Assembly (NCBI RefSeq): GCF_001005825.1
Contig: NZ_LBHV01000003.1
Location: 62,001 to 126,000 of the forward strand
DNA length: 64,000 nt
Direction of reading: 5' to 3'
From: Rhizobium sp. LC145
GTDB taxonomy: Bacteria; Pseudomonadota; Alphaproteobacteria; Rhizobiales; Rhizobiaceae
A program made the position numbers and the translations under genes. Positions 20,042 to 58,484 of the stretch are shown here, in pieces. The notes under the pieces are model-generated. The model worked only from the letters and a program-made list of their open reading frames with translations. It did no database searches and was not told the DNA's origin. The first letter of the stretch is position 1. Every line of letters starts with the position of its first letter.

Positions 20042-20061
20042 CTTGCAAAAAGGGGAATGAG

Positions 20062-21051: not shown

Positions 21052-21057
21052 TTTTGA

Positions 21058-21094
21058 GGCGCCGCGGCCGAAAGCCCGCGGCGCCCTCGTTTTT
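21058..21094 (+). terminator. Terminator/attenuator between dctP and the MarR-like gene
   Basis: A 10-bp perfect stem GGCGCCGCGG/CCGCGGCGCC with an 8-base loop is followed by CTCGTTTTT. It lies between the dctP stop codon and the ribosome-binding site of the regulator gene, only 14 bases before the ATG, so readthrough would set regulator level. Confidence 0.8.
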
Positions 21095-21108
21095 CCGGGA
21101 GGAGAGTC

Positions 21109-21627
21109 ATGTCACCAAAGGATCAGTTCGGGCCGATCGTGTCCTCGGGACATCTGGCGAGCGGCGCATTGCCGGCTCTTTCCGAGATCGAGTTCGGGCT
21201 TATCATGTTGAACCATGCCTTCAGCCGCTGGATGGTGCGGTGCATGGCCGCCTCCGGCGTGCCGGACCTCTCTCCGGTGGATATCCTCGTGCTCCACAAT
21301 ATCAACAGCCGCAACAAACCCAAGACGCTCGCCGATATTTGCCTCGTGCTGAATATCGAGGACACCCATGTCGTGACCTACGCCCTGAAAAAGCTCGAGC
21401 GCCTGAAGCTCATCAAGTCCGGCCGGCGCGGCAAGGAAAAGCTGGTCAGTGTCACGGAGGCGGGCGCCGACGCTTGCGCCCGATACAAATCATTGCGTGA
21501 GGCATTGCTCGTCCGCTCGGTGCTCGCGACCGAGGTCTCCGCCGAGAGCCTTTCGGAAGTCGCCGCCCGGCTCAGGGCGCTCTCCGGCCATTACGACCAG
21601 GCCGCCCGCGCCGCCGCTTCGCTTTGA
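21109..21627 (+). CDS. Winged-helix MarR-type transcriptional regulator
   Basis: A 172-residue cytoplasmic protein with an N-terminal helix, then the winged helix TLADICLVLNIEDTHVVTYALKKLERLKLI and a wing SGRRGKEKLVSVTEAG. It belongs to the predicted MarR-like group often found beside transporter and amidohydrolase genes. The start codon follows CGGGAGGAGAG. Its neighbours are the TRAP genes upstream on the same strand and, converging 6 bases away, the hydrolase gene at 21634. The target could be either the TRAP/hydantoinase promoter or the anthranilate island. The former is favoured by strand. Confidence 0.8.
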   Translation: MSPKDQFGPIVSSGHLASGALPALSEIEFGLIMLNHAFSRWMVRCMAASGVPDLSPVDILVLHNINSRNKPKTLADICLVLNIEDTHVVTYALKKLERLKLIKSGRRGKEKLVSVTEAGADACARYKSLREALLVRSVLATEVSAESLSEVAARLRALSGHYDQAARAAASL

Positions 21628-21633: not shown

Positions 21634-22458
21634 TCAGGATAGCAGGGCGCCCACCATCGGGTGGCGCGGGTCGGCCAGGCCGTCGACGATGGTGAAGTGA
21701 TGCTTATCGGGCTCCTCGACGTAATCCGTCTCGGCACCCAGTCCTTTCCAGATGTTGGCAAGAAGCGCGCTTTGTCGGATGAACTCCGAGCGCTCGGCGC
21801 CGCCGACCCAGCAGGTGAGCCGGACGCCGGACAGCGGCTCGAGAAGCGCCGGGCTTTCCCGCCAGGCTTCCTGCCGGTCGATCCTCAGGCTCTTGTTCAT
21901 GCCGGTGTGTATCAGGGGCCTCAGATCATGCAGGCCCGATAGCGAAACCGTCTTGACGATGCGTTCCAGTACCGGCTCGGCGAGCGGCGAGGTCGTCGAT
22001 ATCATCCGCGTCACCAGCTGTCCGCCCGCCGAATGGCCGATGAGGCGGATCGGCCCGCCCACGATGGCCGAAGCCTCGGAAATCGCGGCGCCGATTTCGG
22101 CGGTGATGCCGGAAATGCGGATATCCGGACAGAGCGCATAGGAAGGCATCGCGACCGCATAACCATGTTCCACCGGCCCGCGCGCCAGATGAGATAGATA
22201 GCCCCGGTCGAGCCTCAGCCAGAAACCGCCATGCACGAAGACGACGAGGCCGACGGGATCGCCGACTGGAAGGAAGAGGTCGAGGCGGTTGCGCTCTCCT
22301 GGGCCGTAGGCGATGTCGAGCCTGGCCCGCCCGGTATCCATCAGCACGTCGCGATAATGCCGCGCGGGCTCGACCCAGAGCCCCGGCCAGCGCTCCCCAC
22401 CGGGGATGTTCGGACCGTTGGCATAGGCATCGTTCCAGTCGGTTATGCGGTGGCGCAT
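21634..22458 (-). CDS. Alpha/beta hydrolase, arylformamidase (KynB)-like
   Basis: A 274-residue alpha/beta hydrolase with the oxyanion motif VHGGFW, the nucleophile elbow GHSAGG and a C-terminal His in KHHFTIVD. HGGFW near the N-terminus and the overall length fit the family of kynurenine formamidases and related carboxylesterases. Hydrolysis of N-formylkynurenine or N-formylanthranilate would feed anthranilate into the neighbouring ligase, which is inference from context. The start at 22458 has GAGGAG upstream. The longer open frame runs through the divergent promoter and is rejected. Confidence 0.8.
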   Translation of the reverse strand: MRHRITDWNDAYANGPNIPGGERWPGLWVEPARHYRDVLMDTGRARLDIAYGPGERNRLDLFLPVGDPVGLVVFVHGGFWLRLDRGYLSHLARGPVEHGYAVAMPSYALCPDIRISGITAEIGAAISEASAIVGGPIRLIGHSAGGQLVTRMISTTSPLAEPVLERIVKTVSLSGLHDLRPLIHTGMNKSLRIDRQEAWRESPALLEPLSGVRLTCWVGGAERSEFIRQSALLANIWKGLGAETDYVEEPDKHHFTIVDGLADPRHPMVGALLS

Positions 22459-22696
22459 GCTTGATGCTCCTCGTCTTCTTCCGCAGGCATACTGGCACCG
22501 CAGCACGCTCGACGGAAGGCGCGAAGTGCTGAAAACCGCCGCTTCGAAAATTATTACAAACTTAAAATTTCTCTCTTGCCAGACGCTGAAGGCGGTGCAA
22601 TTCTCATCAAAAAGGCGAAAAGCCGCGCGCGATCGGACCCGAGGAGGCAAAGCCTCCCGCCAGCCGACCGCACCAGAACGAGTGGGAACATGGACG
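22459..22696. promoter_or_regulatory. Divergent promoter region, hydrolase / 2-aminobenzoate-CoA ligase
   Basis: A 238-base region with a distinctly AT-rich core (22541-22572) in an otherwise GC-rich sequence. It contains AAACTTAAAAT (22558-22568), the same 11-mer found in the promoter of the monooxygenase operon at 36439-36449, in the same direction relative to transcription. The TAAAAT part could be a -10 box for the ligase gene, but no good -35 box is seen, so an activator may be needed. Confidence 0.5.
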
Positions 22697-24322
22697 ATGC
22701 TGGGACCGACAGGCCATCTGGATTCATTTGCGCGCGACAATCTTCCGCCGGCGGATCAGTGGCCTGAACTCAAGCTCGATGGCTTCGACTATCCCGAATG
22801 GCTGAATGCCGCAGTCGAGCTCACCGATCGAATGGTCGAGCGAGGTTTCGGGGACCATACGGCGCTGATCGGCAATGGTCGCCGCCGCACCTACAAGGAG
22901 CTTTCCGACTGGACGAGCCGCATCGCGCGGGCGCTTGTCGAGGATTACGGCCTGAAGCCCGGAAACCGCGTGCTCATCCGTTCGGCCAATAATCCCGCCA
23001 TGGTCGCCTGCTGGCTCGCCGCGACCAAGGCCGGCGCGGTGGTGGTCAACACGATGCCCATGCTGCGCGCCGGGGAATTGACCAAGATCATCGACAAGGC
23101 CGAAGTCTCCATGGCGCTTTGCGATACGCGGCTGATGGACGAACTGGTGGCGACCGCCAAGGAAAGCGCCTTCCTGAAGCAAGTCATCGGCTTTGACGGA
23201 ACCGCCAATCATGACGCTGAGCTCGACCGTGCCGCGCTGAACAAGCCGGTCCGCTTCGATGCGGTGAACACCGGCCGGGACGACGTGGCGCTGCTCGGCT
23301 TCACCTCCGGCTCCACGGGAGTGCCGAAGGCCACCATGCATTTCCATCGCGATATTCTAATCATCGCGGATGCCTATGCCAAGGAAGTGCTGAACGTCAC
23401 GCCGGACGATGTCTTCGTTGGCTCGCCACCGCTTGCCTTCACCTTCGGGCTCGGAGGGCTGGCGATCTTTCCCTTGCGCTTTGGCGCGGCCGCCACCCTC
23501 CTGGAGCAGGCGACGCCCCCGAAGATGATCGAGATCATCGAGACCTACAAGGCGACGATCAGCTTCACCGCACCGACCGCCTATCGCGCCATGCTCGCCG
23601 CACTCGACCAGGGCGCCGATCTCTCTTCGCTCCGGATCGCCGTCTCCGCCGGAGAGACCTTGCCGGCACCTGTCTTCGAGGAATGGACGCGCAAGACCGG
23701 CAAGCCGATCCTCGATGGCATCGGTTCCACTGAGATGCTGCACATCTTCATCTCCAACCATCTCGGCGACGCGAAACCCGCCTGCACCGGCAGACCGATC
23801 AAGGGCTTTGAGGCGAAGATAGTCGATGACGACATGAATGAGGTACCGGTCGGCACTATAGGGCGGCTTGCCGTCAGAGGACCGATCGGCTGCCGCTATC
23901 TCGCCGACGAGCGGCAGAAGGATTATGTCTGCGACGGCTGGAACCTGACCGGCGATTCCTTCGCCCAGGACGAGGACGGCTATTTCCATTTCGCTGCCCG
24001 CTCCGACGACATGATCGTTTCGGCCGGTTACAATATCGCCGGTCCGGAGGTGGAGGCAGCACTTCTCAAGCACGAGGCCGTACTGGAATGTGCGGTGATC
24101 GGGGCGCCGGACGCCGAAAGGGGCACGATCGTTCAGGCGCATGTGGTATTGGCCGATCCCTCCGCTGCCTGCGACGCGCTGGCGAAACTTCTGCAGGAAC
24201 ACGTGAAGAGCGTGATCGCACCCTATAAATATCCGCGTTCGATCGTCTTCACCGATACATTGCCCAAGACGGAGTCGGGAAAGATCCAGCGGTTTCGGCT
24301 GAAACAGGCCGCGAGAGCCTGA
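22697..24322 (+). CDS. abmG: 2-aminobenzoate-CoA ligase
   Basis: A 541-residue acyl-CoA synthetase that activates anthranilate with ATP and CoA to 2-aminobenzoyl-CoA. The AMP-binding P-loop FTSGSTGVPK is at about 202-211. LDGIGSTEM, YNIAGPEVE and the C-terminal LPKTESGKIQRFRL with the catalytic lysine follow in order. The benzoate-type start (FARDNLPPADQWPEL) is typical of 2-aminobenzoate and benzoate ligases. The start at 22697 restores the family length, and upstream codons in this frame cross the promoter. It is followed by a five-gene Liv-type importer and faces the monooxygenase/reductase operon. Confidence 0.88.
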   Translation: MLGPTGHLDSFARDNLPPADQWPELKLDGFDYPEWLNAAVELTDRMVERGFGDHTALIGNGRRRTYKELSDWTSRIARALVEDYGLKPGNRVLIRSANNPAMVACWLAATKAGAVVVNTMPMLRAGELTKIIDKAEVSMALCDTRLMDELVATAKESAFLKQVIGFDGTANHDAELDRAALNKPVRFDAVNTGRDDVALLGFTSGSTGVPKATMHFHRDILIIADAYAKEVLNVTPDDVFVGSPPLAFTFGLGGLAIFPLRFGAAATLLEQATPPKMIEIIETYKATISFTAPTAYRAMLAALDQGADLSSLRIAVSAGETLPAPVFEEWTRKTGKPILDGIGSTEMLHIFISNHLGDAKPACTGRPIKGFEAKIVDDDMNEVPVGTIGRLAVRGPIGCRYLADERQKDYVCDGWNLTGDSFAQDEDGYFHFAARSDDMIVSAGYNIAGPEVEAALLKHEAVLECAVIGAPDAERGTIVQAHVVLADPSAACDALAKLLQEHVKSVIAPYKYPRSIVFTDTLPKTESGKIQRFRLKQAARA

Positions 24323-24419
24323 AAGCCTGAGAATAAAAACATCTTCGCCGTATCGAGATGGTGGAAGTTTCGCAGCGAGTGTGAATTATGGGAACAATAA
24401 AACAACTGGGAGCCATAAA

Positions 24420-25556
24420 ATGAATAAAAGTCTTGCTGCGGCCACGCTGGCCTTGAGCCTTGGGGTCTCCGGCCTTGCCATGGCCGAACCGCTGAAGATC
24501 GGCATGATCACCACGCTTTCAGGTGGCGGCGCCGGGCTCGGCATCGATACCCGTGACGGTTTCATGCTGGCGATCAAGAATTCCGGAAACAAGGAGATCG
24601 AGGTCGTCACCGAGGACGATGCGCAGAAGCCGGAACTGGCCGTGCAGATCGCCGATAAGATGATCCAGAGCGACGAGGTGGACATCTTGACCGGCATCGT
24701 TTGGTCAAATCTTCTGATGGCCGTGGCTCCGAGCGCGGTGGCCCAGGGCAAGCTCTACGTCTCCACCAATGCCGCACCGGCCGCACTTGCCGGCGAGAAG
24801 TGCAACCCGCTTTATTTCAACGCCGCCTACCAGAACGACAATCTTCACGAGGCCATGGGCGAATACGCCAACAAGGGCTACAAGAAGATGTTCATCATGG
24901 CGCCGAACTATCCTGCGGGTAAGGATTCGCTCACCGGCTTCAAGCGTTACTATAAGGGCGAGGTCGCGGCGGAAGTCTATACGCAGGTCGGTCAGACGGA
25001 CTATGCTGCAGAAATTGCCCAGATGCGCGCTTCCGGCGCCGACGGCATCTTCATCTTTCTGCCCGGCGGCATGGGCATCGCCTTCATGAAGCAGTTCGCC
25101 CAATCGGGCGTCGATATTCCGGTCATGGGCCCGGGCTTCTCCTTCAGCCAGGACGTGCTGCCGGCGATCGGCGATGCGGCGCTGGGCGTCAAGGCATCCG
25201 GCCAGTGGGCTCCGGACTTCGACAATCCGGCGAGCAAGAAGTTCCTGACGGATTTCCAGAAGGAATATAACCGCCTGCCGTCGATCTATGCCGTCCAGGC
25301 CTATGACGCCGCCCAACTCATCCTGTCGGCGGCTGGCAAGGCGGACGTCAAGGATACCGATGCGTTTCGCGCCGAACTTCTGAAGGCCGACATCCAGTCG
25401 CCGCGCGGAAACTTCAAGTTCAACACCAACCAGCATCCGATCCAGGATATCTATGTCACGGAAGTGGTGAAGGATGGCGATGTGCTCACCAACAAGACGG
25501 TGGAGAAGATCTTCACCGATCATGGCGATGCCTATGCCAAAGACTGCAAGATGTAA
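24420..25556 (+). CDS. Liv-type ABC transporter substrate-binding protein
   Basis: A 378-residue periplasmic receptor of the type I (leucine/amide/aromatic) family. The signal peptide MNKSLAAATLALSLGVSGLAMA is cleaved before EPLKIGMITTLSG. The mature region resembles receptors linked to benzoate-type aromatic acids more than LivK. The start at 24420 is supported by GGGAG eight bases upstream. It begins 98 bases after the ligase gene, and the next transporter gene follows within 10 bases. Anthranilate or a tryptophan-catabolite ligand is the natural guess from context. Confidence 0.9.
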   Translation: MNKSLAAATLALSLGVSGLAMAEPLKIGMITTLSGGGAGLGIDTRDGFMLAIKNSGNKEIEVVTEDDAQKPELAVQIADKMIQSDEVDILTGIVWSNLLMAVAPSAVAQGKLYVSTNAAPAALAGEKCNPLYFNAAYQNDNLHEAMGEYANKGYKKMFIMAPNYPAGKDSLTGFKRYYKGEVAAEVYTQVGQTDYAAEIAQMRASGADGIFIFLPGGMGIAFMKQFAQSGVDIPVMGPGFSFSQDVLPAIGDAALGVKASGQWAPDFDNPASKKFLTDFQKEYNRLPSIYAVQAYDAAQLILSAAGKADVKDTDAFRAELLKADIQSPRGNFKFNTNQHPIQDIYVTEVVKDGDVLTNKTVEKIFTDHGDAYAKDCKM

Positions 25557-25565
25557 GGGTTGGTT

Positions 25566-26489
25566 GTGACCCTTGCACTTGCTCTCGAGCAGTTGCTGAA
25601 CGGCCTTCAGCTCGGCGTCATGTTGTTTCTCATGGCGGCCGGGCTGACGCTGATCTTCGGCGTCATGGGCCTGATCAATCTTGCACACGGCTCGCTCTAC
25701 ATGGTCGGCGCTTTCGCCTGCGCCGCGGTGGCGGCCGCGACCGGCTCCTTCTGGATCGGTCTCGTCGCGAGCCTGATTGCCGCTGCCGCTGCCGGCGCGC
25801 TCGTCGAACTTCTCGTCATCCGCAGGCTCTACGACCGCGACCACCTGGATCAGGTGCTTGCCACCTTCGCCTTGATCCTGATTTTTTCCGAAGGGACACG
25901 CTGGCTCTTCGGCTCCTTCCCGCTCTATCTCGATATTCCGCCCATTCTAGGCGGCGCCGTCATGTTGCCGGGTGGGTTGCAGTATCCGGTCTATCGCCTG
26001 GCGATCATCGCTGCCGGGGCGCTGGTCGCCTTCGGGCTCTACGTGCTGATCTCGAGGACGCGTCTCGGGATGCGTATCCGCGCCGGCGAAAGCGATCGGG
26101 AGATGATCGGCGCGCTCGGCGTCGACATCCGCACTCTTTACACGGTGGTCTTCGCGCTCGGGGCGGCGCTTGCGGGCCTTGCCGGCGCCATGGTCGGCGC
26201 GCTGCAATCCGTGCAGGTGGGCATGGGCGAGCCTGTGCTCATCCTCGCCTTCGTGGTGATCGTCATCGGCGGCATCGGGTCGATCAAGGGAGCGCTTTTC
26301 GGCGCGCTGCTGGTCGGCGTCACCGATACGATGGGCCGATTCCTGCTGCCGCAACTGCTGGCGCTTTTCGTGCCGCCGGCGCAGGCGGGCATGATCGGCG
26401 GCGCGGCAGCTTCCATGCTCATCTATATCGTGATGGCCTTGATCCTGGCGGTGAAGCCGCGCGGCCTCTTCCCGGCGGCGCATGCGTGA
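25566..26489 (+). CDS. Branched-chain-type ABC transporter permease (LivH-like)
   Basis: A 307-residue inner-membrane permease with about eight hydrophobic segments and the family motif LTLIFGVMGLINLAHGSLYM near the N-terminus. A GTG at 25566 is chosen as start because AAGGG lies 6 bases upstream. A TTG at 25560 has no room for a ribosome-binding site. It pairs with the LivM-like gene that begins within or just after its last codons. Together they form the membrane channel of the importer encoded with the ligase. Confidence 0.9.
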   Translation: MTLALALEQLLNGLQLGVMLFLMAAGLTLIFGVMGLINLAHGSLYMVGAFACAAVAAATGSFWIGLVASLIAAAAAGALVELLVIRRLYDRDHLDQVLATFALILIFSEGTRWLFGSFPLYLDIPPILGGAVMLPGGLQYPVYRLAIIAAGALVAFGLYVLISRTRLGMRIRAGESDREMIGALGVDIRTLYTVVFALGAALAGLAGAMVGALQSVQVGMGEPVLILAFVVIVIGGIGSIKGALFGALLVGVTDTMGRFLLPQLLALFVPPAQAGMIGGAAASMLIYIVMALILAVKPRGLFPAAHA

Positions 26490-26493
26490 GGCC

Positions 26494-27471
26494 ATGATGA
26501 TATCACGCGAAAACCTCATCAACTTGATTCTGGCTGCGCTTCTGCTGGCGGTGCCACTCGCCGCCTATGCTTCTGGTGAGCAGTTCTACATCACGCTCGC
26601 TACTCGCATCGCCATCCTGGCGCTCGCCGCGACTGGCCTCAATCTGGCGCTGGGTTTGGGCGGTCTCGTATCCTTCGGCCACGCGGCTTTCTTCGGCATC
26701 GGCGGCTATGCGGCGGGCATTCTGGCGACCCATGGCTTTTCGGGCGATCCATTGCTCCTCGGCTTGTCCGGTACCAATCAGATGCCGGTGATCTGGCTTG
26801 TGGCGGTTCTCGCTGCGAGCTTTGTCGGGTTGGTGATCGGCGCGATCAGCCTTCGCACATCCGGCGTCTATTTCATCATGATCACGCTCGCCTTCGCCCA
26901 GATGGTCTATTATTTCGCGATCTCCTGGCCGGCCTATGGCGGGGAGGACGGGCTGTCCATCCTCGTCCGCAACCAGTTTGCGGGCATCAACACCATGCGG
27001 CCGCTGAACTTCTTCCTGATCTGCTACGTGACCCTCCTGGTCGCGCTCGGCCTCTTTTCGCTGATCCGGGGCTCGCGCTTCGGTTCGGCTCTCCAGGCTG
27101 CGCGGCAGAACGAGGTGCGGGTGGCGACCGTCGGCATCGCCCCCTTCCGCATCCGGCTGACGGCTTTCGCGATCTCGGCGGGGATCACCGGGCTTGCCGG
27201 CGCGCTATTTGCCGATCTCAACCGCTTCGTCAGCCCCTCCATGCTGTCCTGGCACATGTCGGGCGAGTTGATCGTTCTGATCATCCTCGGCGGCGTCGGC
27301 CGCTTGTTCGGTCCGGTCGCCGGCGCCATGCTCTATGTCATCTTCGAGTATGCGCTGGGCGGCGTCACCGAGCGCTGGCAGTTCTTCCTTGGGCTGATCC
27401 TGCTCGGCGTCGTGCTGTTTGCCCGCGGCGGCTTGCTGGGGTTGCTGGCCGGGAGGGCCAAGCATGGTTGA
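26494..27471 (+). CDS. Branched-chain-type ABC transporter permease (LivM-like)
   Basis: A 325-residue permease with about nine hydrophobic segments. The family signature LNLALGLGGLVSFGHAAFFGIGGY (starting around residue 49) and GPVAGAMLYVIFEY are present. The ATG at 26494 has GTGAGG upstream. An ATG at 26482 overlapping livH is an alternative that adds four residues. It overlaps the ATPase gene by 8 bases, so translational coupling is likely. Confidence 0.9.
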   Translation: MMISRENLINLILAALLLAVPLAAYASGEQFYITLATRIAILALAATGLNLALGLGGLVSFGHAAFFGIGGYAAGILATHGFSGDPLLLGLSGTNQMPVIWLVAVLAASFVGLVIGAISLRTSGVYFIMITLAFAQMVYYFAISWPAYGGEDGLSILVRNQFAGINTMRPLNFFLICYVTLLVALGLFSLIRGSRFGSALQAARQNEVRVATVGIAPFRIRLTAFAISAGITGLAGALFADLNRFVSPSMLSWHMSGELIVLIILGGVGRLFGPVAGAMLYVIFEYALGGVTERWQFFLGLILLGVVLFARGGLLGLLAGRAKHG

Positions 27472-28225
27472 AGTCATGGCTGATCCGGTTCTTGAAATTT
27501 CCGGCCTCGTCAAAAGCTTCGGCGCGTTGAGGGCGACCGATGGCGTGTCGCTTGATCTTCGCCCCGGCGAGATTCATGCGCTGATCGGCCCGAACGGCGC
27601 GGGCAAGTCCACCCTCATCCACCAGATCTGCGGCACGCTGCGTCAGGATGCCGGCACGATCCGTTTTGCCGGTCAGGATATCGGCGGTCTCTCGGTTGCC
27701 GAGCGTGCGCGCTTCGGCCTCGGTCGCACCTTCCAGGTCTCATCGCTGGCGCCGGAATTTTCCGCGCTCCGCAACGTCATGTTGGCGGTGCAGGCGAGGG
27801 AAGGTTCAAGCTTCCGCTTCTTCAAACCGGTGATGTGGGATGCTTCGCTCATTGATACAGCCATGGCCATGCTGGAGCGTGTGAGCCTTGCGGAACGGGC
27901 ACGCGTGCCCGCGGGCGAACTTTCCCATGGTGAGCGCCGGCAACTCGAGATCGCCATGGCACTGGCGCTTCAGGCAAAGGCCTTCCTGCTCGACGAGCCG
28001 ATGGCGGGCATGGGGCCAGAGGGTTCGAAGTCGCTCACCCGCTTTCTGGATGTGTTGCGGCACGAGGCGCCGATCCTGCTGGTGGAGCACGACATGGACG
28101 CGGTCTTCGCGCTCGCCGATCGGATTTCAGTGCTTGTCTACGGACGTATCATCGCGACCGGCACGGTGGAGGAGATCCGCCGCGACCCGGCCGTGCGCAC
28201 CGCCTATCTCGGAGATCACGCCTGA
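27464..28225 (+). CDS. ABC transporter ATP-binding protein (LivG-like)
   Basis: A 253-residue ATPase with Walker A GPNGAGKST, the Q-loop region GLGRTFQ, the ABC signature LSHGERRQLE (His replaces the second Gly or Ser seen in many family members) and Walker B AFLLDEPMAGM. The short insertion after the Q-loop is typical of LivG. The start at 27464 follows GGGAGGG and overlaps livM by 8 bases. It ends one base into the start of the LivF-like gene (TGATG). Confidence 0.93.
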   Translation: MVEVMADPVLEISGLVKSFGALRATDGVSLDLRPGEIHALIGPNGAGKSTLIHQICGTLRQDAGTIRFAGQDIGGLSVAERARFGLGRTFQVSSLAPEFSALRNVMLAVQAREGSSFRFFKPVMWDASLIDTAMAMLERVSLAERARVPAGELSHGERRQLEIAMALALQAKAFLLDEPMAGMGPEGSKSLTRFLDVLRHEAPILLVEHDMDAVFALADRISVLVYGRIIATGTVEEIRRDPAVRTAYLGDHA

Positions 28226-28908
28226 TGCTGCTCGATGTCGAGAAGATCGAAGCCTTCTATGGAGCGAGCCAGGCGCTTTTCGGTGTCGATCTTTCCCTAA
28301 ACGAAGGCGAGGCCGTGGCTCTGATGGGCCGCAACGGCATGGGCAAGACGACGACCATCCGCGCCATCTGCAACCTCACGCCGCCGCGTGCGGGTGCGGT
28401 GAAGCTCGGCGGCGTGGATACGAAGGGCAAGCCGCCGCATCAGGTGGCGAAACTCGGCATCGGCCTCGTGCCGGAAGGCCGGCGTTGTTTCCCGAACCTG
28501 ACGGTCCACGAAAACCTCGTGGCTGCCGCCCGGCCGGGAGAATGGACGCTCGCCCGCGTCAACGAGCTCTTTCCGAGGCTTGCGGAACGGCACGCCCAGA
28601 TGGCCCGCTCGCTCTCAGGCGGTGAGCAGCAGATGCTGGCGATCGGGCGTGCCCTGATGACCAATCCGCGCCTCCTCATTCTCGACGAGGCGACCGAGGG
28701 ACTGGCGCCGGTCATTCGGCAAGACATCTGGAAGGCGATCCGCAAGCTGAAGGCAGAAGGGCTTTCGATCCTGGTGGTGGACAAGACGCTTTCCGAGCTG
28801 CTGCCGGTTGCTGATCGCTGCACTATCCTCGAAAACGGCCGGAGCGTCTGGCAGGGCACTCCGGGCGAGCTTACCGCCGACCTGCAGGACCGTTATCTCG
28901 GCGTCTGA
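28225..28908 (+). CDS. ABC transporter ATP-binding protein (LivF-like)
   Basis: A 227-residue ATPase with Walker A GRNGMGKTTT, signature LSGGEQQML and Walker B LLILDEATEGL, all in the usual LivF arrangement. It is the last gene of the ligase-transporter operon. Its 3' end overlaps the 3' end of the converging hydratase/dehydrogenase gene by 16 bases (28893-28908), so the two opposed operons have no space for a conventional terminator between them. Confidence 0.93.
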   Translation: MLLDVEKIEAFYGASQALFGVDLSLNEGEAVALMGRNGMGKTTTIRAICNLTPPRAGAVKLGGVDTKGKPPHQVAKLGIGLVPEGRRCFPNLTVHENLVAAARPGEWTLARVNELFPRLAERHAQMARSLSGGEQQMLAIGRALMTNPRLLILDEATEGLAPVIRQDIWKAIRKLKAEGLSILVVDKTLSELLPVADRCTILENGRSVWQGTPGELTADLQDRYLGV

Positions 28909-30866
28909 GCCTTCGCGAACATCGGCCCGCCCTTGTGGGCAGGAAAGCCGTAGCCGTTGATCATCACCAGATCGATATCGCCTGTCCGTGCCGCAATGCC
29001 CTCCGCAAGCAGTACCTCTCCCTCGGATGCCATGGCACTCAGAAGCCGACTAATGATTTCTTCGGAGGAAAACTGGCGGGATGTGATGCTTTTCGCCGCC
29101 CGGCAGGCTTCGATGATCGCCGTCACCTCCGGATCGATCGTGCGCTTGCCGTCAGGGTAGGCATACCAGCCGCGCCCGGCCTTCTGGCCGAGACGCCCGG
29201 CTTCGCAGAGCCGGTCGGCGATCTCGACGTAGCGCTCCTTGCGATCTCGGCTGGCGGCAAAGCGCTTGCGCCGCGCCCAGGCGATTTCAAGACCGGCCAT
29301 GTCATAGACAGCGAAGAGTCCCATGGGAAAGCCGTAGCCTTCCAGTGCCGCGTCGATTTCATGCGGCAGGGCCCCATCTTCAAGCAGGAATTCCGCCTCT
29401 CTTCGGTATGCCGAGAAGATGCGGTTTCCGATGAAGCCTTCCGTCACGCCGGTGACGACCGGCAGCTTGCGCAGCTTCTTGGCGACGGCAAGCCCGGTCG
29501 CCAGCACGTTCGGTGCGGTCCTGCCACAGCGCACCACTTCCAGCAGTCGCATGACATGGGCGGGTGAGAAGAAATGCAGGCCGAGTACGCGTCCGGGGTG
29601 AGCGGTCGCGGCTGCGATTTCGTCAGGGTTCAGATAGCTCGTATTCGTCGCCAATACTGCATCGGGGCGGACGACGCGGTCGAGCCGCCGGAAGAGATCC
29701 GTTTTGACGGCGAGGTCATCGAATACGGCTTCGATCACGAGGTCGCATGGGGCGAGGTCTTGATCTGCTGCGGTGATCGAGAGGCGGGCAACCTGCTCCG
29801 CAAAGCCGGCTTCATCGATGCGCCCGGAGGCTTTCGCCCGCTCCAGCAGACCGATGATGCGTTGGCGGCCTGTTTCTGCGGCTTCCTCGGTCTGATCGAG
29901 GCCGATCACGGTATAACCAGCGCCGAGCGCCGCGACAGCGATCCCGCTGCCCATCAGCCCGAGGCCGCAAATGCCGATTACCTTGACCGGACGAGGCTCG
30001 ACGCCTTCAAAGCCCGGCACCTTGGCGGCCTCACGCTCCGCGAAAAATACATGCCGCAACGCTGCGGCCTCCTGGCCGTCACGCAACGCCAGAAAGGTGG
30101 CGCGCTCGTCCGCAAGGCCTTCGGCAAAGGGACGCGCTACGGAGGTGACAAGCCGGATCGCCTCGGCGGGGGGCCGCTGCCCGCGCGCCTTGGCGAGAAT
30201 TTTGGCCGAAAGCTTTTCCACGTCGGCCGGATCGGCGGGAGAAACGGGAAGTTGGCTTGTCCGTCGCAATGGACTGCCGGCAAGTTCGAGGGTGACGGCG
30301 ACGGCGGCCTTGGTCAGATCAGTGTCCACAACGTCATCGACTATACCGAGGGAAAGGGCCTCGTGTGCCTTCACCGATCGTCCGGAGGCGATAAGGTCGA
30401 GCGCGGCGGGAATACCGATGAGGCGCGGCAGGCGTTGCGTGCCTCCGGCGCCGGGGACGATGCCGAGCTTCACCTCCGGCAGGCCCATTTGTGCGAGCGG
30501 CGAGGCGATGCGATGGTGGCAGGCGAGCGCCACTTCCAATCCCCCGCCGAGCGCTGACCCGTTGATCGCGGCGACGACCGGCTTCGACAGCGCCTCCAGA
30601 GCCTCGATCACCGTCGGCAGAGTGGGCTCCACCGGTGCCTGGCCAAATTCCCGGATATCGGCGCCGCCGATGAAGGTCTTGGCCGCCCCCGTCAGCACGA
30701 CGCCGCGAATGTCGATCGCTTCCTCGGCATGGGCCAGCGCCTTGGCAAGCCCACCGCGGACATCGGCCGACGCGGCATTGACCGGCGGATTGTCGATGGT
30801 GACGACGAGTACGCTTTGCCGAACTTCGCCCGAGACGCCGGTGGAGAAATCGGTCTGTTCTCCCAT
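28893..30866 (-). CDS. Bifunctional enoyl-CoA hydratase / 3-hydroxyacyl-CoA dehydrogenase
   Basis: A 657-residue beta-oxidation protein. The N-terminal crotonase domain (about 1-190) has both acid/base glutamates, Glu111 in GGGLEVAL and Glu131 in LPEVKLGIVPGAGG. The dehydrogenase domain starts with the NAD motif GICGLGLMGSG near residue 300 and continues with the NTSYL and HFFSPAHVM motifs. It is FadJ-like but shorter than typical FadB. Start 30866 follows GGAGTGAGACG, which lies in the end of the RidA-like gene. As the last gene of the monooxygenase operon it probably performs the later beta-oxidation-like steps on the ring-derived CoA ester. Confidence 0.92.
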   Translation of the reverse strand: MGEQTDFSTGVSGEVRQSVLVVTIDNPPVNAASADVRGGLAKALAHAEEAIDIRGVVLTGAAKTFIGGADIREFGQAPVEPTLPTVIEALEALSKPVVAAINGSALGGGLEVALACHHRIASPLAQMGLPEVKLGIVPGAGGTQRLPRLIGIPAALDLIASGRSVKAHEALSLGIVDDVVDTDLTKAAVAVTLELAGSPLRRTSQLPVSPADPADVEKLSAKILAKARGQRPPAEAIRLVTSVARPFAEGLADERATFLALRDGQEAAALRHVFFAEREAAKVPGFEGVEPRPVKVIGICGLGLMGSGIAVAALGAGYTVIGLDQTEEAAETGRQRIIGLLERAKASGRIDEAGFAEQVARLSITAADQDLAPCDLVIEAVFDDLAVKTDLFRRLDRVVRPDAVLATNTSYLNPDEIAAATAHPGRVLGLHFFSPAHVMRLLEVVRCGRTAPNVLATGLAVAKKLRKLPVVTGVTEGFIGNRIFSAYRREAEFLLEDGALPHEIDAALEGYGFPMGLFAVYDMAGLEIAWARRKRFAASRDRKERYVEIADRLCEAGRLGQKAGRGWYAYPDGKRTIDPEVTAIIEACRAAKSITSRQFSSEEIISRLLSAMASEGEVLLAEGIAARTGDIDLVMINGYGFPAHKGGPMFAKAQTPR

Positions 30867-30870
30867 CGTC

Positions 30871-31266
30871 TCACTCCGGAACGACGGCAATTGCCTGGAT
30901 TTCGATCTTGGCGCGATCTTCCACCAGCGCTAGAACCTGCATCGCCGCCATGGCGGGAAAGTGCCGCCCCATCACCTCGCGGTAGACTTTACCTATGCCC
31001 TTGAGGTTTTCGACGTACTCCGACTTATCCGTGAAGTACCAGGTCATGGAGGTCACGTGTTCGGGCCGCGCACCGGCTTCAGCGAGCACAGCCACAACGT
31101 TCTTCAGGGTCTGACGCACCTGTTCCACGAAATCGTCGGTTTCGAAACGGCACTGGCCGTTCCAGCCGATCTGCCCGCCGACGTAGATCTGGCGTCCCCT
31201 TGCCGCAACGCCGTTGGCATAGCCCACCGGTTTCGCCCAGCTCTCCGGCTGCAGGATGTCATGCAT
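30871..31266 (-). CDS. RidA-family protein lacking the canonical arginine
   Basis: A 131-residue protein of the YjgF/YER057c/UK114 family, which hydrolyses enamines and imines to ammonia and ketones. The family core [10 protein letters not shown] and the end [10 protein letters not shown] are clear. The substrate-binding arginine usually found in a PxR(s/a) motif before this end is replaced: the sequence reads [12 protein letters not shown]. Loss of that arginine argues against ordinary 2-iminopropionate deamination. In this operon the protein may remove the ring-derived amino group after the monooxygenase/reductase step, which is inference. It overlaps the acyl-CoA dehydrogenase gene by 8 bases. 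Confidence 0.85.
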
Positions 31267-32449
31267 GTCTTGTCTCCGGCTTCAGGAGCTCGCGGGCAAT
31301 GATGAGTTTCTGGACTTCGGTCGCACCCTCGTAGATGCGCAGCGCCCGGATCTCGCGATAAAGTTTCTCGGTGATCTCACCGCTCTTCACGCCGCGTCCG
31401 CCGAAAATCTGTACGGCACGGTCGATGACGCTCTGGGCGGTTTCCGTGGCCGCCATCTTGGCCATGGCGGCTTCCTTGGTAGTCGGCAGCCCCTGCACGT
31501 CGCGACGCCAGGCGGCGCGATAGGTCAGAAGCGCTGCGGCATCGATCCCGGTAGCCATGTCGCCGAAAGCGGCCTGGGTGAGTTGCAGGTCGGCAAGATG
31601 GGCGCCGAACATCGGCCGAGTTTTGGCATGGGCGAGAGCCTCGTCCAGCGCGCGTTTGGCAAACCCTAGGGCTGCGGCCGCCACGGAGGCACGAAAGATG
31701 TCGAGCGTCCGCATGGCAATCTTGAACCCCTCGCCGGGGCTCCCGAGCAGACGCGAGGCGGGGATGCGGCAATTCTCGAAGCGGATCGTCGCCAACGGAT
31801 GCGGGGCGATCACCTCGATCCGCTCGGCGATGGAAAAACCCGGATCGTCGGCGAAGATGACGAAGGCGGAGATGCCGCGCGTGCCCGGCGCCTCGCCGGT
31901 GCGGGCAAAGACCGTATAGACATCGGCGATGCCGCCATTGGAAATCCAGGTCTTCTCGCCATCGAGGATATAGAAGCCACCTTCCTTGCGCGCAGCACAG
32001 CTCATCGCCGCGACATCCGAGCCGGCCTGCTTTTCCGAGAGCGCGAAGGCGGAGAGCCATTCTCCCGAGCGTGCTTTGGGCAGCACCCTGCGCCGCAGTT
32101 CCTCCGTTCCCGAAAGGCCAATTGCGCCGGTGCCGAGTCCCTGCATAGCAAAGGCGAAGTCGGCAAGCCCCTCATGCCAGGCGAGCGTTTCGCGCGTCAA
32201 GCAGGCGGCGCGGCTGTCGATTGGCGTTTCTCCGCCCGCGCCGGTTGCCGCATCCAGAAGCCCGGCTTCGCCCAAGGCCCGAACGATCCTGCGGCAGCCC
32301 ACATCCAGGTCCGAATGGTCGATAGCGGAAAGTGCGCCTGATACCGTGAAATCATCGAGCTTTGCGGCCAGCACCTTGTGGCTCGCGTCGAAGAAAGGCC
32401 AGTCGAGGAAGTCTCGATCCGGTCCACTGAGGGAGTTAGGCCCGCCCAT
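31259..32449 (-). CDS. Acyl-CoA dehydrogenase
   Basis: A 396-residue FAD enzyme introducing a double bond into an acyl-CoA. The FAD-binding [16 protein letters not shown] and [13 protein letters not shown] motifs and the C-terminal [11 protein letters not shown] are visible. The latter contains the putative catalytic Glu374 in the position used by short- and medium-chain dehydrogenases. It shares one base with the upstream enoyl-CoA hydratase stop and overlaps the RidA-like gene. The likely substrate is a cyclic or ring-opened CoA thioester of the 2-aminobenzoate pathway. Confidence 0.92.
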
Positions 32450-33294
32450 CAGTCGCCCTCGAATGTCGGTTTGCGTTTTTCGGCAAAAGCCTCAAAAGCG
32501 CGGCGGAAGTCCTTGGTCGCCATGCAGATCGCCTGGGCCTGGGCTTCCGCTTCGATCATCTCGTCGATGCCCATGGCCCATTCCTGATTCAGCATGGTCT
32601 TGGTCATCGTATGGGCGAACCATGGGCCGTCCGCCAGCGAATGGGCGAGTTTCAGCGCTTCGGCTTCGAGGCTGCCCACGGCATGCAGCGCATTGTAGAA
32701 GCCCCAGGCTTGCCCTTCCTCGGGACTCATCGAGCGGCCGGTGAAGAGCAGTTCGGCGGCACGACCCTGCCCGATGATGCGGGGCAGGATACCGCATGCG
32801 CCCATATCCGCTCCGGCAAGTCCGACGCGGGTGAAAAGGAAGGCAGTTTTCGCTTCCGGCGTCGCCAGCCGCATGTCCGACGCCATGGCAAGGATCGCGC
32901 CCGCACCCGCACAGATGCCGTCGACGGCCGCGATGATCGGCTGCGGGCATTTGCGCATGGCCTTGACGAGCTCGCCGGTCATCCGCGTGAACGCAAGAAG
33001 GTCCGGCATCGCCATCTTCGTCAGCGGCTCGATGATCTCGAAGACATCGCCGCCGGACGAGAAATTGCCGCCAGCGCCCGTCAGCACCACCGCCCGGATG
33101 TCCGAGGCATGGGCGAGATCACGGAACAGATCGCGAAGTTCCGCATAGCTCTCGAAGGTCAGCGGGTTCTTTCGCTCTGGCCGGTTCAGCCGAATGGTCG
33201 CCACGCGCCCGTCCTCGCTTGCCTGCCAGAGGAAATGCCTAGCCTGGTAATCCTTGAAGGGGCGCAGATGCCCCGCCATCGAAGCATCGCTCAT
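32449..33294 (-). CDS. Enoyl-CoA hydratase/isomerase family protein
   Basis: A 281-residue crotonase-fold protein. The oxyanion-hole segments [12 protein letters not shown] and [15 protein letters not shown] are present. The usual glutamate motif is replaced by [19 protein letters not shown], a variant seen in hydratases or lyases that work on unusual CoA esters. The reaction therefore should not be assumed to be plain crotonyl-CoA hydration. Ring hydration or cleavage in the 2-aminobenzoyl-CoA route is a reasonable hypothesis. It overlaps the SDR gene upstream by four bases (ATGA) and the dehydrogenase gene by one. Confidence 0.9.
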
Positions 33295-34082
33295 CCTGCC
33301 ATTACCTCCCCGCCGGCGATCACGATCGCCTGGCCGTTGATCGATGCCGCGGCGGGCGAGGCGAGCCAGAGCACGGCGTCCGCGACTTCCTCCGGCCTGA
33401 CGAGCCGGCCCTGCGGATTACCCTTCGTGAATTCCTGCATGGTCTCCTCCGCCGTGCGGCCCGTTTTCGCCATGATGGCGTCGATCGAACGGCCGACCAG
33501 GGGCGTATCCGTGAAACCTGGGCAGATTGCATTGACGGTTATGCCGGTCTTGGCGAGTTCCAGCGCCAGCGAGCGGGTGAGGCCGACGACCCCATGCTTT
33601 GCCGCGGTATAGGCCGAAACGTAAGGGTAACCCGTCAGTCCTGCCGTCGAGGCGATGTTGATGATCCGAGCCCCGGCGCCGTAAGCTCTGAGGTCCGGCA
33701 GGATGGCCTGGGTCACCAGGAAGACGCCGGTCAGATCAATGGCGAGCACTTGGTTCCAGATATCGATCGTAGTCCTCTCGAATGGAGCGCTCGGCGCTTC
33801 GCCGGCATTGTTGACGAGAATATCGACCGGGCCGAAGCTCGCATGGGCAGCCTTCAGCCCGTTGTCGATGGCGATATCGTCGGTCACGTCGAAACCATCG
33901 GCCACGCAGACCATGCCCGCCCCGAGCGTGCCCGCGAGTCTTTCCAGGGGTTCTGCCCGGCGGCCGGCAAGTGTCACGCGGGCGCCAGCCTCCACGAGCG
34001 CGGTTACGATTGCCGCGCCGATGCCTCCGCCGGCCCCGGTGACGAGAGCGTGACGATCGGCGAGTTTCCCGCTTGCAGTCAT
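33291..34082 (-). CDS. Short-chain dehydrogenase/reductase
   Basis: A 263-residue classical [11 protein letters not shown] binds the nucleotide near the N-terminus, NNAG follows, and the catalytic Ser, Tyr and Lys lie in [24 protein letters not shown]. It resembles 3-hydroxyacyl-CoA dehydrogenase-type SDRs ([23 protein letters not shown]). It begins 10 bases after the monooxygenase/reductase gene and probably oxidises or reduces an alicyclic hydroxy/keto CoA ester derived from 2-amino-5-oxocyclohexenecarbonyl-CoA. The exact step is unproven. Confidence 0.9.
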
Positions 34083-34092
34083 GGAAGCCTCC

Positions 34093-36402
34093 TCACTTCG
34101 CCGCCGCGCGGGCGAGATTGGTCTCGTATTGCAGCTTGCCGGAATAGTATTGCCTCGGCCAGGGAATATCCGTCAGCCCGATCTTCGCCGCCTCGTGCAG
34201 CACCCAGGCGGGGTCGGCAAGATGCGGGCGGGCGATCGCGCAGAGATCGGCGCGACCGGCGGCGATGATCGAATTGGCATGATCCGCTTCCGAGATGGCG
34301 CCGACGGCGATGGTCGGGATGCCGACCTCGTTGCGGATCTTGTCGGAGAAAGGTGTCTGGAAGAGGCGTCCATAGACCGGCTTTTCTTCTTTCCATACCT
34401 GTCCGGACGAGCAATCGATCAGGTCGGCGCCGGCTTCCTTGAACATGCGGGCGAAGATCGCCGCATCTTCCGGCGTATTGCCGCCCGCAGACCAGTCGTG
34501 GCAGGAAAGGCGTACCGAGATGGGCTTGTCATCCGGCCAGACGGCGCGGATCGCCCGGAACACTTCCAGCGGATAGCGCGCCCGGTTCTCGTGGCTGCCG
34601 CCATATTCGTCGTCGCGCAGGTTCGTCAGCGGCGAAAGGAAGCTCGACAGCAGATAGCCATGGGCGCAATGCAGCTCCAACCAATCGGCACCCGTGGTGG
34701 CCGCAAGCTCGGTGGCGCGCACGAAATCCGCCTTCACCCTGTCCATGTCGGCGCGGTCCATCGCCTTCGGTACCTGGCTGTGCGGCAGGTAGGGGGTAGC
34801 GGAGGCCGAAAGGAGCGGCCAGCCGCCTTCCGGCAGGGGCTGGTCCATGCCTTCCCAGGCGACCTTGGTCGCGCCCTTACGGCCGGCATGACCGAGCTGG
34901 ATGCCCACCTTGGCGGCACTGTTCTCATGTGCGAAATCCACGAAGCGCTTCCAGCGAACCGCTTGCTCGTCATTCCAGAGGCCGAGGCAGCCGGGCGTGA
35001 TGCGGGCATCCGGCGAAACGCAGGTCATTTCGGCAAAGACGAGCCCCGCGCCTCCGAGTGCGCGGGAGCCGAGATGAACGAGGTGGAAATCGTCCATCAG
35101 GCCGTCCTTGGCGGAATACATCGCCATGGGCGACATCACGATGCGGTTGGAAAGCTCCACGCCGCGCACCGCATAGGGCGTGAACATCGGCGGCAGCACG
35201 CGATCGTTCGTTCCGGTTTCGATTCCACTCTGTCCGGCAAACCAGCGTTCGTAACCCTCGAGCCAGGTCTTGTCGCGAAGCCTCAGATTCTCGTGGCTGA
35301 TGCGCTGCGAGCGGGTCAGCATGGAATACATGAACTGTGGAGGCTCCAGCGTATCGGCATAGCGGTGGCCGACCACCTCGAACCATTCCATGGCGTTGCG
35401 CGCAGCGTTCTGGATGCGGGCGACGTCGACGCGGCGGATTTCCTCATAGGTTTTGAGGACTGCCGGGATATTCTCCCTGTCGTGCCCCTGCAGGTCGAAC
35501 TGGCGGGTAAGCTCGATGGCATCGTCGATCGCGAGCTTTGTGCCGGAACCGATCGCGAAATGCGCGGTATGGGCGGCGTCACCCATCAGCACCACATGGG
35601 ATTTTCCATTGTAATGGCTCCACCGGCCGCAGATCAGCCGGTTGAAGTTGAGCCAGGCGCTCCCTCGCAGATGCCGCGCATTGGTCATCAGTTCAGCGCC
35701 TTCCAGCACCTCCGTGAAGAGCTCCTCGCAGAAGTCGATCGAACCCTGCTGGTCCAGCTCGCCGAGACCGTGCTTCTCATAGGCCTCCTCCGTGGTTTCC
35801 ACGATGAAGGTCGAGGTGTTCTCGTCGAACTTGTAGATGTGCGCCTGGAACCAGCCATGCTCCGTCTTGCGGAAGTCGAAGGTGAAGGCATCGAAGAGTT
35901 TGCTTGTGCCAAGCCAGATATAGCGGTTGGGGCGGACGAGAAGATCCGGCTCGAAGACTTCACGGTAGCGGTTGCGGATCCTTGAATTGAAGCCGTCCGA
36001 GGCGATGATGAGGTCTGCATCCGGAAAGTCGAGGTCGCTCTCCGCCTCGGTCTCGAAGATGAGCTCGACTCCGAGCGCCTCGCAGCGGCGCTGCAGGATG
36101 TTGAGCAGCTTCTTGCGGCCGATGCCGACGAAACCATGGCCGGTGGTTCGCTGGCGGGTGCCCTTGAAAAGCACCTCGATATCGTCCCAGTGGTTGAAGG
36201 CATCCTGGATTTCGGCAGCGCTCTCCGCATCCCAGGCCTGCATTGAGTCCATCGTCGCATCGGAGAAGACCACGCCCCAGCCGAAGGTGTCGTAAGGGCG
36301 GTTGCGCTCGACGACGGAAATGCGGTGCTCCGGATGCTGTTTCTTCATCAGCAGCGCGAAGTAGAGGCCGGCGGGGCCGCCGCCGATGCAGACGATGCGC
36401 AT
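34093..36402 (-). CDS. 2-aminobenzoyl-CoA monooxygenase/reductase (two-domain flavoenzyme)
   Basis: A 769-residue fusion. Residues 1 to about 395 form a class A flavin monooxygenase with [14 protein letters not shown] at the N-terminus and [17 protein letters not shown] (about 271-287). Residues from about 403 form an Old Yellow Enzyme-type FMN domain with [42 protein letters not shown] and the YGGSHENR motif. This architecture defines the 2-aminobenzoyl-CoA monooxygenase/reductase of Azoarcus evansii, which hydroxylates and reduces the ring in one protein. Automated pipelines often call such proteins salicylyl-CoA 5-hydroxylase. The GGAGGAG ribosome-binding site is strong. It is the first gene of the six-gene minus-strand operon. 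Confidence 0.9.
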
Positions 36403-36438
36403 GAACCAAACTCCTCCGGACGATTCGCCACTGTTATT

Positions 36439-36466
36439 ATTTTAAGTTTAAACTATATGGGTACAA
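36439..36466 (-). promoter_or_regulatory. Promoter with embedded palindrome for the monooxygenase operon
   Basis: On the minus strand TTGTAC (36466-36461) and TAAAAT (36444-36439) are separated by 16 bases. The spacer holds the perfect 10-bp palindrome AGTTTAAACT (36445-36454). A repressor bound there would block RNA polymerase, and the divergent MarR gene next door is the obvious candidate. AAACTTAAAAT is shared with the ligase promoter at 22558. Confidence 0.6.
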
Positions 36467-36560
36467 GCCGGTGCGTCAAGAGCTTCCCGATACACCTGAA
36501 ACGCCTTTGACATTTGAAATATCGGCCCGTAGTTCTGAGACAAGAGCGGAGGGTAAATTG

Positions 36561-37082
36561 GTGGAAACGGCAGAAGTGGAAACGGCAAGCGCCGATCTGG
36601 AGATGATCATCCATGGACGGAGCGGGCGGAACAAACCCGAGACCCGCCTATGGCTGCGCATGCTCTCAACCACCAAGCTGATTACCGCCGAAATCCGCCG
36701 CCGGCTGCGCGCCGAGTTCGGTGCCACGCTGCCGCAGTTCGACCTGATGGCGCAGCTCTATCGCGAGCCGGATGGCTTGCGGCTCGGTGAGCTTTCCAGG
36801 CGGACCATGGTGACGAACGGCAATGTCACCGGTCTCGTCGAGCGGCTGGAGGCGGACGGCTTCGTGCAGCGGGTCACGCCGGATGGCGACCGCCGCGTGA
36901 CGGTCGCACGGCTGACGCCGGCCGGGACGGAGTTCTTCGAAACCATGGCGGCGGCTCACGAAGGCTGGCTGCGCGATATCATGGCGGATGTCGAACCCGC
37001 AGCGATTGCCGCGCTCTGGTCGGAAATCGGCGCGGTGAAGACATCCGCCAGCAATCACCTTTCCGGCGCTGCTTTCGAGTAG
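36561..37082 (+). CDS. MarR-family regulator of the 2-aminobenzoate island (probable)
   Basis: A 173-residue MarR protein with core helices [19 protein letters not shown] and the winged helix [32 protein letters not shown] followed by the wing [13 protein letters not shown]. Relatives such as BadR and HcaR-type regulators respond to aromatic-CoA esters. I choose a GTG at 36561 because GGAGG lies 8 bases upstream. TTG at 36558 is possible, and an earlier GTG at 36471 would run through the divergent promoter. It is divergent from the monooxygenase/reductase operon and most likely represses it until the CoA ester is present. Confidence 0.85.

Positions 37083-58408: not shown

Positions 58409-58484
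<76 letters not shown>

Follow-up and report, generated by a model that had tools for sequence, protein, structure and literature searches.

What a cluster of aromatic-degradation genes in Rhizobium sp. LC145 breaks down, and how the ring is opened once activated, is the question raised by a stretch of 64,000 nucleotides of contig NZ_LBHV01000003.1 (positions 62,001 to 126,000), referred to here as the window and numbered from its first nucleotide. The core of the cluster lies at 22697-36402 and, with a flanking hydrolase and a MarR-type regulator, it covers 21634-37082; the genome of the window has 5.88 Mb in 35 contigs and is 99.91% complete. As judged from its sequence, the cluster probably serves the aerobic, coenzyme A (CoA)-dependent catabolism of anthranilate (2-aminobenzoate) of the abm kind known from Azoarcus evansii, and we give a probability of about 0.72 to this reading, with the steps proposed below taken as a single explanation.

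Ligase, monooxygenase/reductase and substrate

The putative 2-aminobenzoate-CoA ligase (22697-24322, plus strand, 541 aa) has the benzoate-CoA ligase family TIGR02262 as its best model (369.7 bits, just short of the cut-off of 375.25) and is 53% identical to the ligase of plasmid pAL1 from Arthrobacter Rue61a. Facing it on the minus strand is a predicted 2-aminobenzoyl-CoA monooxygenase/reductase (ACMR, 34093-36402, 769 aa), a fusion of an FAD-monooxygenase with an Old Yellow Enzyme (OYE) domain (PF01494 and PF00724), which matches NF006101 over residues 1-768 with 1350 bits and so passes the curated cut-off of 1078. The cluster thus has the make-up of an abm-type cluster, namely an aryl-CoA ligase gene linked to the fusion gene, together with beta-oxidation genes, a Rid-like gene and a MarR gene.

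Anthranilate-CoA ligase activity has been measured for the pAL1 gene ARUE_113p00220 (PMC3534580), taken to be the sole AMP-binding gene adjoining the ACMR gene of that plasmid. In Rue61a both the plasmid and the chromosomal ligases form anthraniloyl-CoA, and the authors considered anthranilate to be metabolized apparently via CoA thioesters exclusively. Liquid chromatography-mass spectrometry of cells grown on anthranilate, and on that substrate only, revealed a C7H8O4 acid esterified to CoA, which they tentatively assigned as cyclohexanedione-carboxyl-CoA; neither gentisate nor 5-hydroxyanthranilate supported growth of the strain (PMC3534580). Genes which make anthranilate also adjoin some relatives of the cluster: kynureninase and/or tryptophan dioxygenase lie near 9 of the 131 loci of modules A and B described below, and quinaldine, alkylquinolone-regulator and indole-monooxygenase genes are found near relatives on named plasmids. 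A preliminary description of the window had proposed a CoA-dependent anthranilate pathway served by an importer of its own, and both the likeness of the ligase to that of pAL1 and these neighbours support it.

Proposed pathway and the crotonase

The importer would take up anthranilate and, by analogy with characterized relatives, the ligase would form anthraniloyl-CoA, which ACMR would convert with O2 and NAD(P)H to 2-amino-5-oxocyclohex-1-ene-1-carbonyl-CoA. The accessible literature describes the steps past this compound only as 'beta-oxidation'. From here on we infer that a short-chain dehydrogenase (SDR, 33291-34082, minus strand; PF13561) reduces the 5-oxo group and that the Rid-family protein removes the enamine nitrogen of the ring by hydrolysis, yielding 5-hydroxy-2-oxocyclohexane-1-carbonyl-CoA and ammonia; these two steps may occur in either order. 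A crotonase (ECH, 32449-33294, minus strand) would then give 4-hydroxypimelyl-CoA by cleaving the C1-C2 bond of the ring. A single round of beta-oxidation might follow, carried out by an acyl-CoA dehydrogenase (ACD, 31259-32449, minus strand; PF00441/PF02770) and an enoyl-CoA hydratase/3-hydroxyacyl-CoA dehydrogenase (HAD, 28893-30866, minus strand; PF00378, PF02737 and PF00725, with 410.2 bits to the FadJ model NF008363, below its cut-off of 869), and a thiolase encoded elsewhere would release acetyl-CoA and 2-hydroxyglutaryl-CoA.

The ring-opening role is assigned to a protein that had been listed as a hydratase. It does belong to the crotonase family (NF006107, 486.6 bits, cut-off 330), but both hydratase glutamates are missing: Ile134 and Thr155 occupy what we take, from the rat hydratase, to be the two catalytic-glutamate positions, and glutamate is present at neither position in any of 131 aligned crotonases, a set that includes the window protein and pieces retrieved again from the same genome. 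The N-terminal domain of HAD, an internal control, keeps both. Asp163 is invariant in all 131 rows and in PDB alignments falls opposite the 'PDSG' aspartate of 6slb, 6sl9 and 3hrx, presumably the catalytic residue of PaaG-like crotonases. The next-best NCBI models, all far below their cut-offs, are the general crotonase subfamily, oxepin-CoA hydrolase and PaaG. Because both glutamates are missing while Asp163 is kept, ring opening appears more likely than hydration; the crotonase is probably mislabelled, and the name 'enoyl-CoA hydratase' needs care.

Two lower modules beside ACMR

A census was drawn from a pool of 230 sequences including the window, of which 153 loci with a full ACMR, flanks of 2.5 kb or more on both sides and a piece length of 9 kb or more were counted and 77 dropped. 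Genes were called within 10 kb of ACMR by best match to seed proteins above set identity thresholds; Rhizobiaceae are redundantly represented in the set, part of which was chosen by similarity to the window. L numbers denote the loci or sequences compared, and G numbers the genomes of a draw of 385 alphaproteobacterial genomes. A crotonase (module A) was called at 111 loci, a cupin (module B) at 20 and a bicupin of the GDO type at 3, with 19 loci having none of these, and in no case (0/153) were crotonase and cupin called together. The Rid gene (RID) accompanies 108 of the 111 module-A and all 20 module-B loci, none of the three GDO-type loci and one of the 19 marker-less loci, that is 128 of 131 in modules A and B versus 1 of 22 in the others. 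SDR was called at 110 of 111 module-A and 16 of 20 module-B loci, while a second dehydrogenase, SDR2, was called at no module-A locus and at the identical 16 module-B loci. ACD is found at 100 of 111 module-A loci, and an FAH-family hydrolase (FAH) at 17 of 20 module-B loci.

For the pairing of SDR with SDR2, four module-B loci dropped for a short flank (L221-L224) were re-added. Among the resulting 24, both genes were called at 18, neither at six and one alone at none; since the former are alphaproteobacterial and the latter actinobacterial plasmids, the split follows phylum and the pairing amounts to roughly a single evolutionary contrast. Annotated SDR genes below the calling thresholds lie outside the operon in L217 and L221. 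The thioesterase was tried as a marker of the cupin module and rejected, being also called at module-A loci (TE at 47 and TEa at 12 of 111). The ACMR of L039, a record titled Bacillus subtilis SK6B4, groups with that of Pseudochrobactrum (L050), and the assembly is probably mislabelled or mixed.

Within module B, the cupin keeps His57, His59, Glu63 and His101, which we take to be metal ligands, in 25 of 25 rows. The pAL1 and rhizobial cupins are 74% identical; for ACMR the identity between pAL1 and the window is 48%. In the 385 genomes the cupin occurs at high identity (72%) only in G283, with two more at 40%. Most of its PDB matches by sequence are oxalate decarboxylase or phosphoglucose isomerase cupins, with no sign of ring cleavage, and AlphaFold models of seven close cupins (mean pLDDT 44.9) were too poor to use. 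FAH reached 434 bits with NF053535 (2,4-didehydro-3-deoxy-L-rhamnonate hydrolase), below the cut-off of 500, and the best model for SDR2 is trans-4-hydroxycyclohexanecarboxylate dehydrogenase (238.5 bits, cut-off 400). From the conserved metal-ligand positions, the gene partners and the chemistry, the cupin is proposed to be a dioxygenase. A thioesterase, a C1-C2 dioxygenase and an acylpyruvate hydrolase would together convert 2,5-dioxocyclohexanecarbonyl-CoA to succinate and pyruvate, a route which fits both the C7H8O4 ester of Rue61a, although this may be an artefact of the acid quench, and the lack of growth on gentisate. In L218, L219 and L225 a module-B cupin was seen without ACMR on the retrieved stretches, with FAH, SDR, TRAP or alkene-reductase genes nearby, and the cupin family perhaps has a wider alicyclic or diketone role.

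Exchange of the modules on gene trees

Modules A and B have replaced each other repeatedly. On a FastTree phylogeny of 157 ACMR proteins the module-B label needs nine changes, at least six of them forced by well-supported branches, and for the ACMR of 79 close loci (64 A, 15 B) it needs five, at least three of them forced. RID on these 79 loci and TE on 61, in contrast, each need only a single change to split by module (support 99 and 100). The same division shows in the mean identities, RID being 79% identical within A, 89% within B and 65% between, as against 73, 72 and 71% for SDR. As RID and TE sort by module while ACMR and SDR do not, the block that is exchanged probably begins beyond ACMR-SDR and carries its own Rid in both versions. 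The census in this way sets an upper part comprising ligase, ACMR and usually SDR apart from two lower modules that can replace each other, and so limits what the intermediate at the branch can be.

A Rid protein without Arg105

The Rid-family protein of the window (30871-31266, minus strand; PF01042, 75.9 bits) had been described as RidA-like. Its family membership holds, but the arginine of RidA-type deaminases is replaced by Met106 at the position of RidA Arg105, presumably the arginine in the 'PAR' motif. Arg105 binds the carboxylate of the substrate, and its loss would fit a substrate whose carboxyl is a thioester. Methionine is found at this position in 135 of 138 Rid proteins of the clusters, the others having Ile, Val or a gap, whereas 137 retain the late glutamate (position 122). 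Elsewhere in the genome of the window lie nine further PF01042 regions; five could be aligned, and three of these five carry Arg at the Arg105 position. According to the accessible text of one source, members of Rid4-7 lack Arg105 and none so far has demonstrated deaminase activity (PMC8113886); some Rid-family proteins are reported, in the part of another that is accessible, as deaminases in other aromatic pathways (PMC6449761).

Tentatively, and at somewhat less than even odds, the Rid protein can be read together with the two modules as an Arg105-less catabolic deaminase of a CoA-thioester ring enamine, the product of which would be common to two interchangeable exits. Arg105 would have been lost because the substrate has no free carboxylate to hold. 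At the exit found in the window, a non-hydratase crotonase would open the ring ahead of beta-oxidation. At the other, a 'dihydro-gentisate' exit, a thioesterase would be followed by a 3-His-1-Glu cupin yielding 2,4-dioxopimelate (succinylpyruvate) and by the FAH-family hydrolase yielding succinate and pyruvate, with SDR2 re-oxidizing the 5-oxo group where SDR had reduced it. On this reading, a specific candidate substrate could be named for a Rid protein that lacks Arg105. A literature search, with most subscription journals outside its coverage, returned no paper combining '2-aminobenzoyl-CoA' with 'RidA'.

Alternative explanations

A number of observations weigh against the anthranilate pathway as proposed. 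The cluster Rid proteins lack Arg105, which the accessible text of two papers treats as a predictor of, or need for, deaminase activity (PMC5619798, PMC8113886). The C7H8O4 ester may arise non-enzymatically, its precursor being unstable below pH 5 and the cells having been quenched in formic acid, and Rue61a carries a second, chromosomal gene set. The PDB relatives which share Asp163 with the crotonase (6slb, 6sl9, 3hrx, 3g64) were deposited as enoyl-CoA hydratases, and no thiolase was found among the genes scanned. Of the 111 module-A loci, 11 lack ACD, only 67 have HAD and only 61 have a ligase within 10 kb (11 of 20 in module B). The SDR tree of the 79 close loci is poorly resolved, with seven label changes of which only one is forced. 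Lastly, the NCBI family name of ACMR refers to salicylyl-CoA, and ACMR alone does not fix the substrate because 19 of the 153 loci carry none of crotonase, cupin or GDO.

That family name, in full bifunctional salicylyl-CoA 5-hydroxylase/oxidoreductase (NF006101), is one ground for supposing that the cluster degrades salicylate or another 2-substituted benzoate, with ACMR acting as a salicylyl-CoA 5-hydroxylase. The other is given by three of the 153 loci (L180, L198, L227), at which ACMR lies beside a GDO-like bicupin and FAH with no Rid called, an arrangement that fits a gentisate route and probably represents a variant of the gentisate type (salicylyl-CoA?) to which the same family name is given. 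In the window cluster, on the other hand, no GDO-like bicupin dioxygenase gene was called and a Rid gene is present, which would be superfluous for a substrate lacking an amino group; the near-restriction of RID to modules A and B and the anthranilate-making neighbours of some relatives also count against salicylate, which we consider improbable, and the label 'salicylyl-CoA 5-hydroxylase' for ACMR needs care in annotation. Even less credible, though it bears on the source rather than on the pathway, is the earlier suggestion that formylated tryptophan catabolites feed the cluster, the alpha/beta-hydrolase (HYD, 21634-22458, minus strand; NF058665, 338.8 bits, cut-off 320) being a mark of formylkynurenine. 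The hydrolase does match kynurenine formamidase 4e11 (4.6e-12), although more weakly than its best PDB match 2pbl, and kynureninase and/or tryptophan dioxygenase adjoin the nine loci mentioned above. In the window genome, however, neither kynureninase nor tryptophan 2,3-dioxygenase was found (in each search 2 of 14 controls exceeded the cut-off), nor was KynB, a weak negative as none of 14 controls did so; with these three not found, the suggestion is not supported. Since no kynurenine pathway was found, the hydrolase more likely frees anthranilate from an amide or ester; it is 31% identical to the pAL1 alpha/beta-hydrolase beside meqE, presumably an N-acetylanthranilate amidase.

With anthranilate retained as the substrate, the part played by the Rid protein has a rival of its own, in which it is a housekeeping or protective protein travelling with the cluster and deamination is spontaneous. 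The replacement of Arg105 by Met is in line with this, as is the behaviour of the ACMR product, which loses its amino group by hydrolysis and is unstable at pH values under 5 (PMC3534580). Co-occurrence was examined in the 385 genomes with ACMR matches of at least 670 bits (71 genomes, in three of which they are contig-edge pieces) and RID matches at E 1e-25 or better. In 12 of 14 genomes checked that have an unmarked ACMR locus, no crotonase-module or ligase genes lie beside the RID relative at orthologue-like identity, one of the 12 (L252) having no RID called, and in the remaining two (L249, L255) other pathway genes do so. Yet a RID relative is present in 64 of the 71 genomes with ACMR as against 7 of the 314 without, kinship being uncorrected. 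Because RID often lies elsewhere in the unmarked-ACMR genomes, this is weaker evidence for a single pathway than the locus counts. RID is moreover retained in both alternative modules, in Actinobacteria as well as Alphaproteobacteria, and has diverged along with the module, and Glu122 is almost invariant. We regard a bystander role as unlikely, less so than a salicylate pathway, and give somewhat more credit to the catalytic Rid and its two exits. Six of the seven genomes with RID and no full ACMR were examined, of which L258 and L259 have pathway-like neighbours and partial ACMR matches in their genomes; Thr and Ile stand at the Arg105 position in the RID relatives of L259 and L260, respectively.

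Distribution and neighbours of related loci

ACMR is widespread, exceeding the family cut-off in 65 of the 385 alphaproteobacterial genomes and in 64 of 398 genomes drawn from the whole phylum. ACMR-like fusions of 45-56% identity, without any pathway marker called within 10 kb, are those of L140, L143, L145, L146, L150, L152, L158, L163, L165-L168, L170, L173, L178 and L179. In G208, G298 and G376 only the monooxygenase half is matched (profile positions 1-385 or 1-394), two of these having an internal stop, and these may be forms of the enzyme that are not fused.

Tryptophan 2,3-dioxygenase and/or kynureninase-like genes lie beside the ACMR clusters of L072, L148, L154, L184, L186, L193, L195, L215, L216 and L224, which may be regarded as tryptophan-fed versions, unlike the window. 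On an Alloyangia plasmid (L222) a module-B cluster is accompanied by styrene/indole-monooxygenase, cyclase-family and indolepyruvate oxidoreductase genes, which perhaps supply anthranilate from indole; the cyclase-family protein (isatin-hydrolase- or KynB-like) gave no match in the window genome in a search made without a positive control. In Rhodococcus erythropolis BG43 a plasmid-borne module-B anthranilate cluster (L221) lies approximately 6 kb from aqdR, a gene which we take to belong to alkylquinolone degradation. A relative of the hydrolase was called within 10 kb of ACMR at 9 of 131 module-A/B loci, that of the window itself, 12 kb away, being uncounted, and in L060 and L226 it lies directly after SDR2.

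Gene layout and regulation

The genes named in the preliminary description are all present and open, in the order given there and in two convergent sets, and the family scans agree with it in outline. The plus strand carries ligase-SBP-LivHMGF and the minus strand, facing it, ACMR-SDR-crotonase-ACD-Rid-HAD, the two sets overlapping at 28893-28908. Ten of the 14 proteins were scanned against family profiles, while the two permeases and two ATPases were named by identity to annotated genes of L226. The importer, all on the plus strand, consists of a periplasmic solute-binding protein (SBP) of the Liv type (24420-25556; PF13458, 260.5 bits), LivH-like (25560-26489) and LivM-like (26482-27471) permeases, 93 and 86% identical to branched-chain amino-acid ABC permeases, and LivG-like (27464-28225) and LivF-like (28225-28908) ATPases, 88 and 81% identical to ABC ATPases. 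Starts were placed inside the open reading frames for the hydrolase (~22458), the ligase (ATG at 22697), LivG (~27464) and HAD (~30866).

The MarR-type regulator (36471-37082, plus strand; PF12802/PF01047), whose start is probably further in, is separated from ACMR by an operator-like palindrome, TTTAAGTTTAAACT, at 36441-36454. Allowing up to three mismatches, it has four matches in the 64 kb versus 0.31 expected, three of which overlap at 36439-36458; the fourth, the operator-like element TTTAAGTTTGTAAT (22553-22566, minus strand, three mismatches to the palindrome), lies between the hydrolase and the ligase. The 12-base core recurs upstream of ACMR in relatives, being found with up to two mismatches at 48 of 79 close (related) loci as opposed to 7 of 1580 shuffles. 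MarR probably controls both gene sets via this shared palindrome.

By ACMR, the closest named relative is Rhizobium sp. LCM 4573 (93%), followed by Pseudorhizobium and Neorhizobium species (88%). In the comparison of gene order across relatives that had been called for, L003, L004, L005 and L010 share the cluster order over the stretches retrieved. Genes outside the cluster were named by eye. Directly before the hydrolase, 18728-21627 holds a TRAP-type large permease, a solute-binding protein and a second MarR-like gene, and most retrieved relatives stop short of the matching stretch. A glutaminase-like gene (37112-38041) adjoins MarR and is kept in L003, L004 and L010, and a long gene at 38097-40769 resembles a PQQ-dependent membrane dehydrogenase. 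The sole Rfam match in the window at the gathering threshold is a tRNA gene at 58412-58484 on the minus strand.

Comparison with known systems

The cluster is a Rhizobiaceae version of the abm cluster of A. evansii, and the kind of pathway is thus already known, as the preliminary description had recognized from the ligase and the fusion, both of which are found here. The A. evansii clusters, described by Schuhle in 2001, are said to contain the fusion, MarR, Rid and SBP. As far as the accessible text of the sources goes, A. evansii has two abm (2-aminobenzoate-CoA) clusters and shares with the window a ligase (abmG there), a 2-aminobenzoyl-CoA monooxygenase/reductase and beta-oxidation; the 'ordered candidate enzyme set' claimed for the window is hence present as a gene set but not new, such clusters having been reported in 2001 (PMC8388817, PMC4539516). 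In comparison with them, the genome of the window has a single full-length ACMR copy, and the cluster contains a complete importer of five parts next to the ligase, a fused hydratase/3-hydroxyacyl-CoA dehydrogenase and an alpha/beta-hydrolase.

Plasmid pAL1 of Arthrobacter Rue61a (L113) has a homologous ligase (53%), ACMR (48%) and Rid (39%), whereas FAH, cupin and thioesterase replace the SDR, crotonase, acyl-CoA dehydrogenase and hydratase/dehydrogenase of the window. Plasmid p3 of Rhizobium leguminosarum (L226) is closer, with ACMR (84%), SDR (68%), importer, MarR and hydrolase (61%) in common, and there a thioesterase-Rid-cupin-FAH-SDR2 module takes the place of the beta-oxidation module. 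With the RidA/YjgF enamine deaminases the window Rid has PF01042 and the late Glu in common, while differing by the Met at the Arg105 position. It is this comparison which makes the Arg-less Rid, the probably mislabelled crotonase and the two exchangeable exits testable.

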